A stretch of DNA of 37,947 nucleotides, taken from positions 1 to 37,947 of the forward strand of contig JAISZA010000142.1 in assembly GCA_031269535.1 (NCBI GenBank), read 5' to 3'. This stretch comes from Tannerellaceae bacterium. GTDB lineage: Bacteria; Bacteroidota; Bacteroidia; Bacteroidales; Tannerellaceae. Positions within the stretch are counted from its first letter, which is position 1. Each line of letters opens with the position of its first letter. The position numbers were made by a program, and so were the translations under genes. The notes beneath the pieces are model-generated. The model saw only the letters and a list, made by a program, of their open reading frames with translations, had not been told where the DNA came from and did not search any database. This document shows, one piece after another, positions 31,698-37,947 of this stretch.

Positions 31698-34600
31698 CTA
31701 AAAACTTACTCTCAGTCCGCCAATGATACTTCTCATCATGGGGGTATTGTCATCCTCAGGATCCCATCCCGGCCAATTTGTCCAGGTATAGAGATTCTTT
31801 CCGCTGACATATATCCGGAAACTATTCAGACCGATCTTATTCAATACCGGTTTGCCAAATGAATAGGAAAGTGAAACGTCCTGCAGGCGGATAAAACTTC
31901 TGGACTGATAAATTCCCGGATTTAAGGGTGGAACATAAGAGATAGCAGGGACATTGTTCACAGGATTATCCGGTCTCCAATAGGGATATACAGAAGGTCT
32001 GTTATACCGTATGGCACCATAATCACCTCCAGAGACAATTAATCCAAAAACATTATCCTGATAGAATCCGTTTCCTCCCTGGATTGAATTAACAAAGAAA
32101 GAGAGATCAAATCCTTTGTAGGCAAAAGAATTGTTGATACCCCAACGATAGTTGGGCGTTTTGTATCCCACAATTGTCCTGTCGTTAGTTGCATCTACCA
32201 CATTATCGCCATTTATATCTACCAGTCTATACATTCCCGGATAGTACCCCGACATGATAGAACCATTGAAGAAATCTTCCTCCTGCCATACACCATTTAC
32301 TACATAATCGTACAGAGCGCTGATGGGCTTTCCTTTAAACCATGAATTTCCCAGATCCTGCTCACTTCCGTCTCCGTAAAGTTCGATAATTTTATCCCGG
32401 TTTAAAGAAAATAAAAACCTTGACTGCCACAAGAAATCCCGGTTTTTGATATTAACGGAAGTCAACGCTGTTTCTATACCTTTATTGTTTATTCCGCCGA
32501 TGTTTGTCCACACGCTACTATAACCCGATATCTGGGGAATATTTCTTTTCACAAGTACATCCTTTGTTTGCGTATTATACACATCAATCTCAGCCGTAAG
32601 CCGTTGATTGAGTACAATCAAGTCAAGTCCTAAATTGGTAGAAGAGGTGGATTCCCATCCCAAATCAGAATTACCCATAGAAGATGGAAATACTCCCACT
32701 GCTGTACTTCCGTTAAAAGCGTAAGTTGTGCTTTCTACTCTTGACAAGCTGGCATAACGACCGATTCCCTGATTCCCATTTAACCCATACGAAAGCCGGA
32801 GTTTTAATTGATCGAGCCAAGGTATTTCATTTAAAAACTTTTCACGTGAAAGAACCCATGCCAGGGAAACAGAAGGGAAGCCGGCATACTTTTTATTTTT
32901 CCCGAATCCGGAATAACCATCGCGACGATAGGTTGCCGTAAGAAGGTATTTGCTATCGTAGGCGTAATTCAGGCGGGTCATGAACGAAATACTGCCTTCT
33001 TCCCAGGCATTTGATGAAACCGATTGTGTCTCACCTGATTGCAGGGAATTATATCCCAGGACAGGATTCTGAAAGCCGTAGGCAACCAACTTACTCTCTT
33101 CTCCCTCCCTCTTCTCTCCACTGTACAGCAAGGTTCCGTTCAGACTATGGACATTATTGAATATCCCGGAATAAGACAGGATATTATTTATCAACCAGTC
33201 ACGTCCTTCTTTCAAATTTTTCATCCCATAATTGTTGAAAATGGAACCTTCAAAAGTGGTGGTCGGGAAGAAATTATTTTGCTTGCGGATATTATATGTT
33301 TCGGAATAGTTTACCTCATACCGAAGTCCTTTTACAAATGGCACATCAATTTTTGCAGACAAGACATAAAACACTCTGTTTGCAATATCTTTATCATCTA
33401 CATACTTGTTAATAAGCGGATGACGCTGCATACTTTCGTTGGCAAGATAAATAGGATAATTTCCTTTCTCATCGGTTGTATTAGCCAGCGGACTTGCTCT
33501 TAATACATACGTCATAGCTGCTGCATTATAAAATCCATCCATAGATACGGTTTCTTCATTATTATAATATCCCGAATAATCCAGGCGGGAAACAGTTGTA
33601 TTTAATCCAAGGCTAAACCATTCCGTTATTTTGTTTTCAAAATTAGCCCGTAAAGAGAATCGTTTAAAATCATCACCTTGAATAATACCATCCTGACGCA
33701 CATACGAACCCGACAAATAATAATTGGTACGATTTGTCTGCCCCGATACACTTAAATTATAGCTCTGAACCGGAGCTGTATTTTCGATCAGATCAATCCA
33801 GTCCACTGTTCGTCCTGCGAGGTAATTTTCCTGTTCTTCTACGGAACGCAAGCTTTTGGCAACCAGGTTCCGATCAGTAATGTCCGGACGAGCCGGGCGA
33901 CCTGCCACGCTGGTTGGATTCGTCCTATACCAAGGCAGAAGGTCTTGCTGGTAATAGTTATAGTCAACAATACGAATTGCAAATTCATCCGCGTTCATTA
34001 CTTTAGTACGTTTGGTCGGCGCCATTCCCTGAATACCATAATACATATTGAAATTGAATAGTGGCTTCTCACTCTGCCCTCTTTTAGTGGAAATAATAAT
34101 GACACCGTTAGCCGAACGCGATCCATAAACAGCTGCTGCGCTCGCATCTTTCAATATATCAATCTTCTCAATGTCGTTGATATCCATATCCGACAGGCTG
34201 CCGTTATAGATTATTCCATCCACAACTAATAAGGGTTCTTCGCTTGCCGACAGCGAGGTTTTTCCACGGATGGAGATTGCTCCCGATTCACCAGCCCTGG
34301 AGGCGCCACCCACATTCACACCTGCCATATAGCCCTGTAAAGCTTGCGACAGGTTTACATTGGCTGCCATTTCTTTATCATCCATTTTCAGACTCACAAC
34401 GGAGCCGGTCAAATCACTTTTTCGTATCGTGCCATAGCCAATAACGACCACCTCTTCCAGGAGAGATAAATTCTCCGATAATGTGATATGGTAGACCGTG
34501 TTATTACCTATATGCACTTCGGCGGGCGTATATCCGATGAAACTGATTTGAACGATACTTCCGGTATTTACCTGGAGGGTAAACTTTCCATCCGTGTCTG

Positions 34601-35090
34601 TAATGACTCCGTTGCCGGTTCCTTTTTCCAGAATGTTTGCGCCAATGACAGGTTCACCGGCTTCGTCTGTCACGGTGCCCGAAATGGTTTTTTTCGCTTG
34701 CTGGGGTAGAGGTACATTCGAGTATTTTATGAGCATGATACTATGCCCTTCGATGAGGTATGTAATATCTGTGCCGTTGAATACTGCTTTCAGGACATCT
34801 TCAACCACTTTGTTTTTTAATCTGACGGAAACAGTTTGGTTCAGATTCACTTCATTCGGTTTGTAAACAAACAGATAATCCGATTGTTTCTCAATCTCGG
34901 TCAGGACTTCTTTCAGACTGATGTTTTCTACTTCCAGACTCACTCTTGAAATCTGAGAGTGAGTTTCTGTTGCCATTAATCCTGTTGTAACAAGTAGTAG
35001 AAAAAAAGTAGGTAGTCTCATTTTTCTATATACATTTTTTATGAATGGCTTAAACAATAATTGTATTATCCAGGTTGATTTTTTTTTCAT
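31698..35090 (-). CDS. SusC-like TonB-dependent transporter with STN signalling domain
   Basis: A 1130-residue outer-membrane transporter of the signalling kind. After a long N-terminal signal region (hydrophobic core about 24-40, ending THSQ at 46) come an STN domain (about 50-125: VSLEVENISLKEVLTEIEKQSDYLFVY), a carboxypeptidase-regulatory-like domain (about 135-205: ISGTVTDEAGEPVIGANI) and a TonB-box-like EEVVVIGYGT (212-221). The plug and barrel follow. STN domains contact the periplasmic part of a FecR anti-sigma, so the FecR/ECF pair encoded upstream is the expected partner. A start at 35021 (MRLPTFF) would also leave a signal peptide. The sigma-to-susC gap carries the fecR scar. Confidence 0.95.
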   Translation of the reverse strand: MKKKSTWIIQLLFKPFIKNVYRKMRLPTFFLLLVTTGLMATETHSQISRVSLEVENISLKEVLTEIEKQSDYLFVYKPNEVNLNQTVSVRLKNKVVEDVLKAVFNGTDITYLIEGHSIMLIKYSNVPLPQQAKKTISGTVTDEAGEPVIGANILEKGTGNGVITDTDGKFTLQVNTGSIVQISFIGYTPAEVHIGNNTVYHITLSENLSLLEEVVVIGYGTIRKSDLTGSVVSLKMDDKEMAANVNLSQALQGYMAGVNVGGASRAGESGAISIRGKTSLSASEEPLLVVDGIIYNGSLSDMDINDIEKIDILKDASAAAVYGSRSANGVIIISTKRGQSEKPLFNFNMYYGIQGMAPTKRTKVMNADEFAIRIVDYNYYQQDLLPWYRTNPTSVAGRPARPDITDRNLVAKSLRSVEEQENYLAGRTVDWIDLIENTAPVQSYNLSVSGQTNRTNYYLSGSYVRQDGIIQGDDFKRFSLRANFENKITEWFSLGLNTTVSRLDYSGYYNNEETVSMDGFYNAAAMTYVLRASPLANTTDEKGNYPIYLANESMQRHPLINKYVDDKDIANRVFYVLSAKIDVPFVKGLRYEVNYSETYNIRKQNNFFPTTTFEGSIFNNYGMKNLKEGRDWLINNILSYSGIFNNVHSLNGTLLYSGEKREGEESKLVAYGFQNPVLGYNSLQSGETQSVSSNAWEEGSISFMTRLNYAYDSKYLLTATYRRDGYSGFGKNKKYAGFPSVSLAWVLSREKFLNEIPWLDQLKLRLSYGLNGNQGIGRYASLSRVESTTYAFNGSTAVGVFPSSMGNSDLGWESTSSTNLGLDLIVLNQRLTAEIDVYNTQTKDVLVKRNIPQISGYSSVWTNIGGINNKGIETALTSVNIKNRDFLWQSRFLFSLNRDKIIELYGDGSEQDLGNSWFKGKPISALYDYVVNGVWQEEDFFNGSIMSGYYPGMYRLVDINGDNVVDATNDRTIVGYKTPNYRWGINNSFAYKGFDLSFFVNSIQGGNGFYQDNVFGLIVSGGDYGAIRYNRPSVYPYWRPDNPVNNVPAISYVPPLNPGIYQSRSFIRLQDVSLSYSFGKPVLNKIGLNSFRIYVSGKNLYTWTNWPGWDPEDDNTPMMRSIIGGLRVSF

Positions 35091-35151
35091 ACATTTGTCA
35101 TGTAAATAAAGTTAATATTAAAATAGATTGTTTCACGTATGACTTTATTTG

Positions 35152-35177
35152 CCGGGAGGTATTGCCGTACCTTCCGG
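35152..35177 (-). other. Hairpin in the leader of the second susC
   Basis: 35152-35161 pairs with 35168-35177 (10 bases, one G-T wobble), 62 bases before the susC start. In the minus direction it is not followed by T residues (a T run lies on the other side), so it is not a normal terminator for this operon. It may lie in the susC leader RNA. Confidence 0.45.
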
Positions 35178-35230
35178 TTTTTCGTTTCATCTGATCTTAT
35201 TTATTCCATAGGCATCTCCATTTAAAAGAT

Positions 35231-35323
35231 TATTCATATACAGTAATTATCCAGACTCGTTATCGTGTGCATAAGCGTGTCTTTACATCTTTGCTTTATG
35301 AAAAGGAACTTTCCGCCCTTTCA
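35231..35323 (-). pseudogene. Collapsed fecR: only the two ends remain
   Basis: Between sigma and susC, 35231-35269 closely matches the last codons of the intact fecR (36073-36115). Read with one missing base it gives DNES..IITVYE and a stop, against DNESNIITIYE in FecR. 35281-35323 matches the bases just before the intact fecR start (37009-37052). The gene body of about 900 bases is gone. It is thus the remains of a second fecR in the normal sigma-fecR-susC order. Confidence 0.75.
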
Positions 35324-35944
35324 TTAATAAAACGATTGAAAGAGACAAGCTGCTAGTGCACGGATTGTTAAAAACAAAAAAAGAATGGGAAAATAATCCG
35401 CCAGATTGGCACGTAAATGTTTTAGTGTTTTGGAAAGGTGGTAGTTTACTCCTTTAATGCTGATCCCCCATGCTTCGGAAATTTCTTTCTTGCTGAGGTT
35501 CTGAAAACGGTGCATAAAGAAGATTTCTCTGGTCTGGCGGGGGAGGCCTGACAGGGTAGAGGCAATGATTTGCCGGATATCGTCTGCAAAGATTTTTTCC
35601 GGGTCACAGGCTTTCAAAGTCGATATACGTATTTCGAGTTCCCGTTTCCCGTCTTCCGAAAGATTAAGAATGACATTCTGCCGGATAGATTCACGATTCA
35701 AATGATCCAGGGCTTTGTTCTTCAGGATAGTAAATAAAAGACTTCCGGGATGCTCAATCTCTTTCAATTGTCCGATTTCCCATAATTTTATCAAAGACTC
35801 GGATGCAATGTCTTCCGCTATCCAATCATCGTGAACATACGATTTGGCAAATAGAAAACATTTATTGTAATAAGTCGTGTAAAACTTTTTGAAACCCGAT
35901 GACTCCGAACTGTCCATGTTTATTGTTTTCGTACAATTAACCAT
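35324..35944 (-). CDS. ECF-type RNA polymerase sigma factor
   Basis: A 206-residue (197 if from ATG at 35917) extracytoplasmic-function sigma factor. Region 2 is about residues 20-88, with the -10-recognition stretch DDWIAEDIASESLIKLW and FTILKNKALDHLNRE. Region 4 is about 125-180, with LSGLPRQTREIFFMHRF and the helix-turn-helix LSKKEISEAWGISIKGVNYHLSKTLKHLR. A hydrophobic tail (FPILFLFLTIRALAACLF) follows, as in many Bacteroides ECF factors. It should switch on the SusC/SusD operon when FecR releases it. Unusually it lies downstream of fecR; normal order is sigma then fecR. The 3' end is duplicated upstream of fecR. Confidence 0.94.
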   Translation of the reverse strand: MVNCTKTINMDSSESSGFKKFYTTYYNKCFLFAKSYVHDDWIAEDIASESLIKLWEIGQLKEIEHPGSLLFTILKNKALDHLNRESIRQNVILNLSEDGKRELEIRISTLKACDPEKIFADDIRQIIASTLSGLPRQTREIFFMHRFQNLSKKEISEAWGISIKGVNYHLSKTLKHLRANLADYFPILFLFLTIRALAACLFQSFY

Positions 35945-36072
35945 ACCAGAGCCGGGACGGGAGGCTCCGGTTTGAATCTTCCCGCAATGCGGTTATCGCT
36001 ACATTCCCTCCAATAGGAGAAATTTGTTTTTTCATGGGAGATAAGCTTTTTAAAAGGTTTACAAATGATGAT

Positions 36073-37008
36073 TTATTCATATATGGTAATTATATTAGAC
36101 TCGTTATCACGTGTGTATTTGAATTTATATCTGAGTTTGAGTACTTTTAAAACATGCTCTATTCCGTCTTTGGTACGGAACTTGCCGGAATAGCGTTCGC
36201 CATACAAAGTTTGATTTTTCACGTCGATGCGGATGTCGTAATAGAGTTGCATTTTCTCAAGGACATCTGTAATCGGTTCATCTTCGAAAGCGATAATGCC
36301 TTCCCTCCACAGGAAATGGTTGTGGTTTTGCAGATAAGCCAGTTTCAGCTGTTTATTTTCCGTATAGACATATTGGTTCGGCATCAAACGGATGGTTTCA
36401 GAGGTATGTCTGGATATCACTTCCACGGAGCCTTTCAGCAGCGCTGTTTCGAAATACGCTTCTATCCTGTATGCATTCACATTAAATTCCGTGCCCAGCA
36501 CCTTTATCTGATAATCCCGGGTGGTGACAATAAAGGGTTTGCTTTTATCTTCCGGCACTTTAAAATAGGCCTCTCCATCCAACTCCACTTTTCGTTCTGT
36601 CCCTTCGAACCGGTTGGGAAACGTAAAGCGTGTCTTTGCATTCAGTATCACCTGTGTACCATCTGTCAGTGTGATCTCTGTCCGTTGTCCTTCAGGTGTA
36701 TAAACGGTTTGCGAAACAGCCAGATCCTCCTTCCGGGAAGACAGAAAATAGCAGAATGCAAATGCCAGCAAGAAGATTGCCGCTACTTTCAGGCATTCAG
36801 ACGCTATCTTTACGGATAACTTCCGTTGCACCGTTTTTCCGGATGCCACAGACTCAGTTTCGCTCCACAAGGTGGCATCATACATATGGCGCAGGAGCAG
36901 AAACTCCCGTCTGTTCTCTCTGCCGGCATCCAGCCATTTAGCTACAGCTTCTTTTTCTGCCTGCGAAGCGTTTCCTTCAATATAACGCTGCAATATATCT
37001 GTATCCAT
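36073..37008 (-). CDS. FecR family anti-sigma factor
   Basis: A 311-residue single-pass inner-membrane protein that holds the ECF sigma factor until the STN domain of SusC signals. Residues 1-70 form the cytoplasmic sigma-binding part (DTDILQRYIEGNASQAEKEAVAKWL). The membrane helix is about 72-90 (CLKVAAIFLLAFAFCYFL), the FecR domain about 104-200 (VYTPEGQRTEITLTDGTQVILNAKT, GEAYFKV, VLGTEFNVNAY), and a C-terminal DUF4974-type domain about 245-311 (FEDEPITDVLEKMQLYYDIRI). The ATG at 37008 is chosen because an upstream ATG at 37050 lies in the sigma remnant. Only 128 bases separate it from sigma, on the same strand. Confidence 0.94.
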   Translation of the reverse strand: MDTDILQRYIEGNASQAEKEAVAKWLDAGRENRREFLLLRHMYDATLWSETESVASGKTVQRKLSVKIASECLKVAAIFLLAFAFCYFLSSRKEDLAVSQTVYTPEGQRTEITLTDGTQVILNAKTRFTFPNRFEGTERKVELDGEAYFKVPEDKSKPFIVTTRDYQIKVLGTEFNVNAYRIEAYFETALLKGSVEVISRHTSETIRLMPNQYVYTENKQLKLAYLQNHNHFLWREGIIAFEDEPITDVLEKMQLYYDIRIDVKNQTLYGERYSGKFRTKDGIEHVLKVLKLRYKFKYTRDNESNIITIYE

Positions 37009-37051
37009 ACCTCTTTGTTTTATGAAAAGGAACAAATATCTCCCTCCCATT

Positions 37052-37120
37052 ATAATAAAACGATTGAAAGAGGCAGCCTACTAGTGTACGGATGACAAAA
37101 ATAAAAAAAAACACTTTGGT
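37052..37120 (-). pseudogene. 3' remnant of a second ECF sigma gene
   Basis: Upstream of fecR the minus strand reads FFFIFVIRTLVGCLFQSFY, matching the end of the intact sigma factor (LFLFLTIRALAACLFQSFY). A 2-base insertion removes the stop codon. The DNA match continues from here towards the fecR start, paralleling the bases after the intact sigma gene. Nothing of the rest of this sigma gene is recognisable up to the repeat at 37254; the 37121-37253 stretch is A/T-rich and otherwise unassigned. Confidence 0.75.
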
Positions 37121-37253
37121 TACTATGTCAATAAACATTAACTGATTCCAAATCCAGTTAATTCGTATGCTTTTTTAATAGTTGAATGAATATTTTTCCT
37201 GCCATATTGTCATTGTATTTTAAAGTTAATTCAGACAGAACATCCAAATATTA

Positions 37254-37399
37254 GGGTGCAATTCAAATTGTCGCCTCGTCATTGCGAACCCGCAGGGTGA
37301 AGCAATCCGGTCTGGGCGTACCCCGGATTGCTTCGTACCTTCGCAATGACGGGAATCTGCGACAATCTGAACTGAAAACCGACGTAGTCAGATGCACCC
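37254..37399. repeat. Long palindromic dispersed repeat (MITE-like)
   Basis: The core has CGTCATTGCGAA (37277-37288) pairing with 37340-37351, and GAAGCAATCCGG (37299-37310) pairing exactly with 37323-37334. Outside these, 37260-37274 pairs imperfectly with 37359-37373, and gggtgca (37254-37260) with tgcaccc (37393-37399). The core is a repeat seen between genes of many bacteria. No open frame here is credible; the frames across it are products of the palindrome. It could move as a non-autonomous element with a transposase elsewhere. Confidence 0.75.
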
Positions 37400-37431
37400 C
37401 TTTCAGGCAACCTTTACAGGTTAAAAATTTT

Positions 37432-37686
37432 TCATCCCGTAAAGAGTTTACAGCATACGGATATCCCTTTATCCGTATGCAACCTGTATCCCCGCGGGTC
37501 ACCCCAAAAGTCGCGGCCTGTGCAAGCGAGGTAGCCGGCTTTTTCCAGACGGGCGGCTAACCAGCCGAGCTCGTTGGGGGAGAGGCGGACTGTTTTCAGT
37601 ATCCTGCGGTACGTCATGCACCTGTCATTTTCCCCGTCAAGCCGGTTCAGGAGGGAGCAGATTTCTTTCAGTTTTCCGGACAGCAT
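37432..37686 (-). CDS. Small protein, possibly winged-helix; unknown function
   Basis: An 84-residue open frame (MLSGKLKEICSLLNRLDGEN...). The middle (YRRILKTVRLSPNELGWLAARLEKAGYLAC) resembles a winged-helix recognition unit: helix, turn, helix, then a strand, with the LEKAGYL phrase common in MarR/Lrp-like domains. I do not recognise the family. A perfect 10-base inverted repeat (37453-37462 with 37471-37480) lies inside its 3' part, which weakens the case for coding there. It stands alone between a mobile repeat and hairpins. Confidence 0.4.
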   Translation of the reverse strand: MLSGKLKEICSLLNRLDGENDRCMTYRRILKTVRLSPNELGWLAARLEKAGYLACTGRDFWGDPRGYRLHTDKGISVCCKLFTG

Positions 37687-37769
37687 CCATCGTTCAACGG
37701 GTTATAATTGATTGTTATTCAGTGTTTAAAAGGGTTTTTGACGGTTGCCGCCCTTACGTGGCAAAGCTC

Positions 37770-37795
37770 GTCAGTCCCATCTTTTCCGGACTGAC
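37770..37795 (+). terminator. Terminator-like hairpin
   Basis: An 8-base stem (37770-37777 with 37788-37795) is followed by TTTGTCTCTTTTT. It would end a plus-strand transcript, yet no plus-strand gene precedes it in the window. 37687-37769 and the spaces between the hairpins to the edge show no gene. Confidence 0.5.
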
Positions 37796-37835
37796 TTTGT
37801 CTCTTTTTCTGTGTTTTTAAACTTTCCTTAAAATT

Positions 37836-37856
37836 CCGCTTCTTATAAGGAAGCGG
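37836..37856 (+). other. Second hairpin near the right edge
   Basis: CCGCTTC (37836-37842) pairs with GAAGCGG (37850-37856) around a short A/T loop, followed after a few bases by a C/T-rich run ending in seven T. It is terminator-like, 40 bases after the previous one, and may belong to a small untranslated transcript. No product was recognised. Confidence 0.35.
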
Positions 37857-37931
37857 ACTTAATCTTCCCCTCTTTTTTTGTTTTTTATAGCGGACATTTG
37901 CCGGCCTGAAGCAAGGGGACTTCCCTTTTCT

Positions 37932-37947
37932 CTGGATTGCTTCGTGC
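37932..37947. repeat. Start of another copy of the palindromic repeat (cut by window edge)
   Basis: The final 16 bases, CTGGATTGCTTCGTGC, match the inner arm of the palindrome at 37324-37337 nearly exactly, then run off the window. This supports the element being multi-copy in this genome. Confidence 0.6.

Follow-up and report, generated by a model that had tools for sequence, protein, structure and literature searches.

Background

Cell-surface signalling of the FecI-FecR-FecA kind and the ECF-sigma/anti-sigma regulators of Bacteroides polysaccharide utilization loci are the closest described systems (PMC11658791, PMC3243724). They consist of an ECF sigma factor, a FecR with a FecR_C domain, a SusC with an STN domain, SusD and enzymes. 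All of these are present in the window, by which we mean the whole 37,947-nucleotide stretch of a Tannerellaceae genome analysed here. The window differs from those regulators in having the order fecR-sigma-susC, and in carrying what is left of a second set together with a gutted DoxX gene. A second point of comparison is the DonS-type RNAs of Bacteroides susC homologues (PMC7366714). The nearest relative of the locus itself is on contig C62 of a genome from the same genus, G017. This locus has the closest sigma and FecR and a homologous susC leader, but its sigma, fecR and susC are intact and in canonical order, with no duplication and no scars.

Results

The genes run along the minus strand as fecR (36073-37050), sigma (35324-35944), susC (31698-35090), susD and then enzymes. 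The sigma factor scores 150 bits against TIGR02985 (cutoff 126.4), which places it in the Bacteroidota ECF subfamily. FecR has both of its periplasmic domains, FecR (PF04773, 68.3 bits) and FecR_C (PF16344, 58.9 bits). SusC is a receptor of the TIGR04056 family (817 bits) with an N-terminal STN signalling domain (PF07660, 49.1 bits). Since all these parts are present, trans-envelope signalling as in FecA-FecR-FecI (PMC11658791) would be expected, with FecR translated before sigma. The probable start of sigma is M10 at 35917, and that of fecR, by comparison with G017, is M15 at about 37008. Elsewhere in the genome there are further homologues, about 20 of fecR and 20 of sigma.

The sequence-only reading held that fecR-sigma-susC swaps the normal order, and we agree. 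Among 116 other fecR genes, a sample picked by similarity and not a census, sigma lies upstream in 96, of which 78 also have susC downstream, and not one is directly followed by sigma. Because G017 has an intact sigma-fecR-susC and none of the 116 precedes a sigma, the order in the window is the derived state. The usual order is not strictly defining, so we count the locus as a variant of the module.

The same reading described a sigma 3' end before the intact fecR, at 37052-37120, and a fecR remnant between sigma and susC, at 35231-35323. Both hold up. The truncated sigma tail (37120-37052 on the minus strand, within a feature at 37050..37120) has a local score of 69 against the end of the intact sigma. 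The two fecR pieces, also on the minus strand, score 42 for the start side (35285-35323) and 49 for the end side (35231-35276). The maximum among 830 control pieces taken from the same window is 27, and Markov shuffles (2000, two regions) agree, as their maximum of 28-32 is below every scar. The alignments proposed by that reading come out above chance, with 82 of 96 aligned bases identical in the stretch from the sigma tail to the fecR start (10 gap columns) and 38 of 45 at the fecR end. The truncated tail encodes FVIRTLVGCLFQSFY, and its counterpart in the intact sigma is FLTIRALAACLFQSFY. By these comparisons the sigma and fecR scars are real and far above chance. If fecR truly starts near 37008, the start-side scar is probably mostly sigma-fecR spacer plus the first few bases of the gene, scarcely touching the start codon.

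The susC leader tells which copy is the native one. The G017 leader aligns with the window just upstream of susC, at about 35060-35213. Because this leader is common to both genomes, the side made of sigma, gutted fecR and susC is the native site, and the intact fecR lies in an extra copy upstream. This fits the earlier proposal that the survivors were taken from different copies, namely a native sigma and an extra-copy fecR. A C-terminal extension of sigma (…CLFQSFY) and a sigma-fecR spacer of roughly 40 bp are common to the two copies in the window. G017 lacks the two features, so the duplication is later than the split from G017.

It had also been suggested that the surviving FecR and sigma may not be original mates. 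They do seem to come from different copies, but the worry is weakened by the trees. In trees of 36 sigma/FecR pairs the window sigma is sister to the G017 sigma (support 99/95, 71% amino acid identity) and the window FecR is sister to the G017 FecR (96/87, 58-59%). The two trees are congruent, since each protein groups with the same G017 module. The surviving pair has thus co-descended and is probably still compatible. Even if the two genes come from different copies, those copies would be paralogues of one module that was duplicated after the split from G017. The NG86 dS is saturated, so we used codon-position identities alone. Identity to G017 at position 3 is far below that at positions 1 and 2 in the two genes (0.45 vs 0.76/0.84 and 0.41 vs 0.68/0.77). 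This argues for protein-level constraint on both sigma and fecR since the split, measured over the entire branch to G017 and not the period after the swap alone.

Between fecR and sigma lies a third gutted gene, which the sequence-only reading overlooked, in place of a simple tandem junction. In a search of the genome's own DNA, 35938-36094 matched both ends of a 1.6-kb gene of 526 codons on contig C68. The first ~120 residues of its product hold a DoxX domain, and the remainder has no confident Pfam or NCBIfam assignment. The remnant (35937-36080, minus strand) matches the intact gene at 90% over 113 bp and 91% over 46 bp, with the first ~100 bp joined to the last ~46 bp and the middle gone. 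What is left is a 47-codon ORF with an 8-bp overlap into each neighbour, fecR and sigma. Close to the joint is a shared CGG (…GCATTGCGG abutting GAAGATT…), as would be expected of a short-homology deletion. On C68 a piece of fecR tail and 22 bp resembling the sigma tail lie ahead of the intact DoxX gene, and a LytTR gene comes after it; the sigma-tail match was equalled by 10 of 5000 shuffles. The junction of a fecR end overlapping a DoxX start is found in both the window and C68. We found no DoxX relatives in viral contigs.

The region upstream of DoxX on C68 (2340-2700) also holds a fragment that by eye resembles an RHS-repeat protein, and with its sigma and fecR tail pieces it is a patchwork of gene remnants much like that of the window. 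A second gutted DoxX after the native fecR scar, suggested by GCCTATGGAATAA, was considered and rejected. The stretch aligns instead with the susC leader, which is conserved in G017 and other loci.

At the outer border the sigma tail of the extra copy is cut off where it abuts a dispersed repeat of ~110 bp (37118-37245, no strand assigned) with roughly 25 copies in the genome. Across 19 genomes of the genus, only G017 shares it, in weaker copies. The natural inference is that the rest of this sigma was lost by a repeat-linked rearrangement. With the upstream sigma lost at the repeat edge, the promoter of fecR-sigma is presumably new. The TTTG/TANNTTTG promoter pattern has no match close to fecR and occurs at chance frequency across the window, and a sigma-70 scan, which is poorly suited to Bacteroidota, gave no recognisable promoter either. 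Repeats have replaced the region upstream of fecR, and no Bacteroides-type promoter was matched there. The first repeat holds a TTAACTG...CAGTTAA inverted repeat, and its copies are often near contig ends. Beyond it, at 37250-37400, is a second dispersed palindromic repeat (GGGGTGCATCTGACTACGTCGG ... GAAGCAATCC/GGATTGCTTC) that sits beside several copies of the first.

The susC leader (35090-35213, minus strand) was aligned in the window and 15 relatives. It has a GCCTATG box, a hairpin and a TATTAAC box directly before the susC start codon, and this arrangement is found in most other aligned sigma-fecR-susC loci. The GCCTATG box (35207-35213, minus strand) lies ~120 bp before susC in most close loci and is rare upstream of sigma genes (2 of 112). 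It may belong to the promoter from which the ECF sigma transcribes susC.

On the strand opposite susC, alifold of the 16 leaders gives a conserved terminator hairpin with a U-run and an upstream stem, and a plus-strand hairpin followed by a U-run is present in nearly all 16. In the window the terminator-like site is at 35151-35178 on the plus strand. In the upstream stem, 14 sequences form a U-G pair at a position where the other 2 have U-A, whereas on the sense strand those 14 would carry a C-A mismatch. Because of this asymmetry the conserved structure points to a candidate antisense RNA of the DonS kind at 35100-35187 on the plus strand. The DonS class is defined by a 78-128 nt transcript that represses susC. 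Like those RNAs (PMC7366714), the candidate lies antisense to the leader of a susC homologue and ends in an intrinsic terminator; unlike them, it is known only from conserved sequence and structure. An Rfam search of 35000-37947 found no match at E 0.1. The candidate consists of a paired stem, AAGUUAAUAC/GUAUUGACUUU, and then the covarying terminator hairpin with its U-run, and it is also seen in the fecR-susC gaps of loci L122, L205, L208, L021-L025, L166, L170, L214, L219 and L220.

It is true, as had been noted, that susC lost its directly preceding fecR, but the consequence is doubtful. Since the susC leader is intact and conserved, including the antisense candidate, control of susC at the leader may survive the rearrangement and the missing fecR may matter little.

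Discussion

We argue that the locus is probably a SusC/FecR/ECF-sigma surface-signalling module pieced together from two copies. The native copy would have read sigma-fecR-susC until a deletion took out the interior of its fecR on the spot and left both gene ends behind. Directly upstream, a second copy would have kept its fecR intact, with its sigma cut to a 3' tail at the repeat edge and the DoxX gene after fecR gutted. The upstream FecR would now most likely regulate the native sigma. Ligand-bound SusC would contact FecR through the STN domain, FecR would release or activate sigma, and sigma would transcribe susC and susD from the intact leader. The 47-codon DoxX ORF may hand ribosomes from fecR to sigma, a translational coupling that we offer as a hypothesis. 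One can extend this to say that gutted genes are kept because short start-to-stop ORFs pass ribosomes to the next gene, with the DoxX remnant coupling fecR to sigma and setting the anti-sigma:sigma ratio. We think that version quite improbable. If it were true, deletions that spare the ends would be favoured inside tightly overlapping operons. In the literature covered, we found no paper on a reversed order of FecR and sigma, nor on gutted genes that act as coupling elements.

The sequence-only reading proposed a tandem duplication of sigma-fecR followed by the loss of one sigma and one fecR. Duplication with opposite gene losses is supported by the comparisons above. A plain tandem duplication is unproven and would be incomplete as a history, because a gutted DoxX lies between the copies and the fecR-end/DoxX junction recurs on C68. 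That reading pointed to relatives for an undisturbed version; G017 has the intact sigma-fecR-susC, but we found neither the intermediate sigma-fecR-sigma-fecR nor a full set of intact genes in any genome. On the alternative that denies a duplication, fecR and sigma arrived separately and are unrelated, and the scars are spacer sequence that is alike by chance or convergence. It can appeal to nothing beyond AT-rich spacers, it is refuted by alignments that score 42-69 where controls stop at 27, and sigma and FecR are both sister to one G017 module. We give it almost no credence.

Two routes to the two copies deserve more weight. The duplicated unit may have been DoxX-sigma-fecR, with the overlap as the junction and with DoxX1, sigma1, DoxX2 and fecR2 lost later. 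The shared junction on C68 and a DoxX end that directly adjoins sigma are what this would leave behind, and we regard it as plausible, if somewhat short of likely. It is hard to reconcile with the relatives, none of which was found with DoxX upstream of sigma. No strong DoxX match was found in G017, there is no sigma within about 1.5 kb of DoxX in the family relatives that carry it, and on C68 the next gene is LytTR and not sigma. One can also imagine a dispersed duplication, where a sigma-fecR copy came to lie beside DoxX at the C68 locus and sigma'-fecR-DoxX' was later inserted upstream of the native genes by short-homology or repeat recombination. The tail pieces directly before the intact DoxX suggest this, as do the dispersed repeat bordering the extra copy and the GTATGG common to the DoxX end and the region upstream of the G017 sigma. 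Against it, the C68 sigma-tail piece is only 22 bp. We hold this route possible but rather doubtful. The assembly is 87.5% complete in 251 contigs, which leaves room in principle for C68 and the window to belong to different strains.

A different objection is that the pair no longer functions and the locus is decaying, with another FecR or sigma running susC or susC expressed constitutively. Three gutted genes within 2 kb, repeats in place of a recognizable promoter upstream of fecR, and the many other fecR and sigma homologues in the genome are all in line with this. However, neither surviving ORF is disrupted, their family scores are strong, they show protein-level constraint relative to G017, and the susC leader is intact. 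We therefore consider decay unlikely.

The locus looks like everyday molecular evolution, in which a familiar type of module was duplicated, genes decayed and an unusual order was the outcome. Its value is as an intermediate stage of signalling-module reshuffling that can still be read, with sigma and FecR derived from two copies of one ancestral module. This bears on how far cis-linked sigma/FecR partners exchange after duplication, a practical matter in a genome with some 20 pairs.
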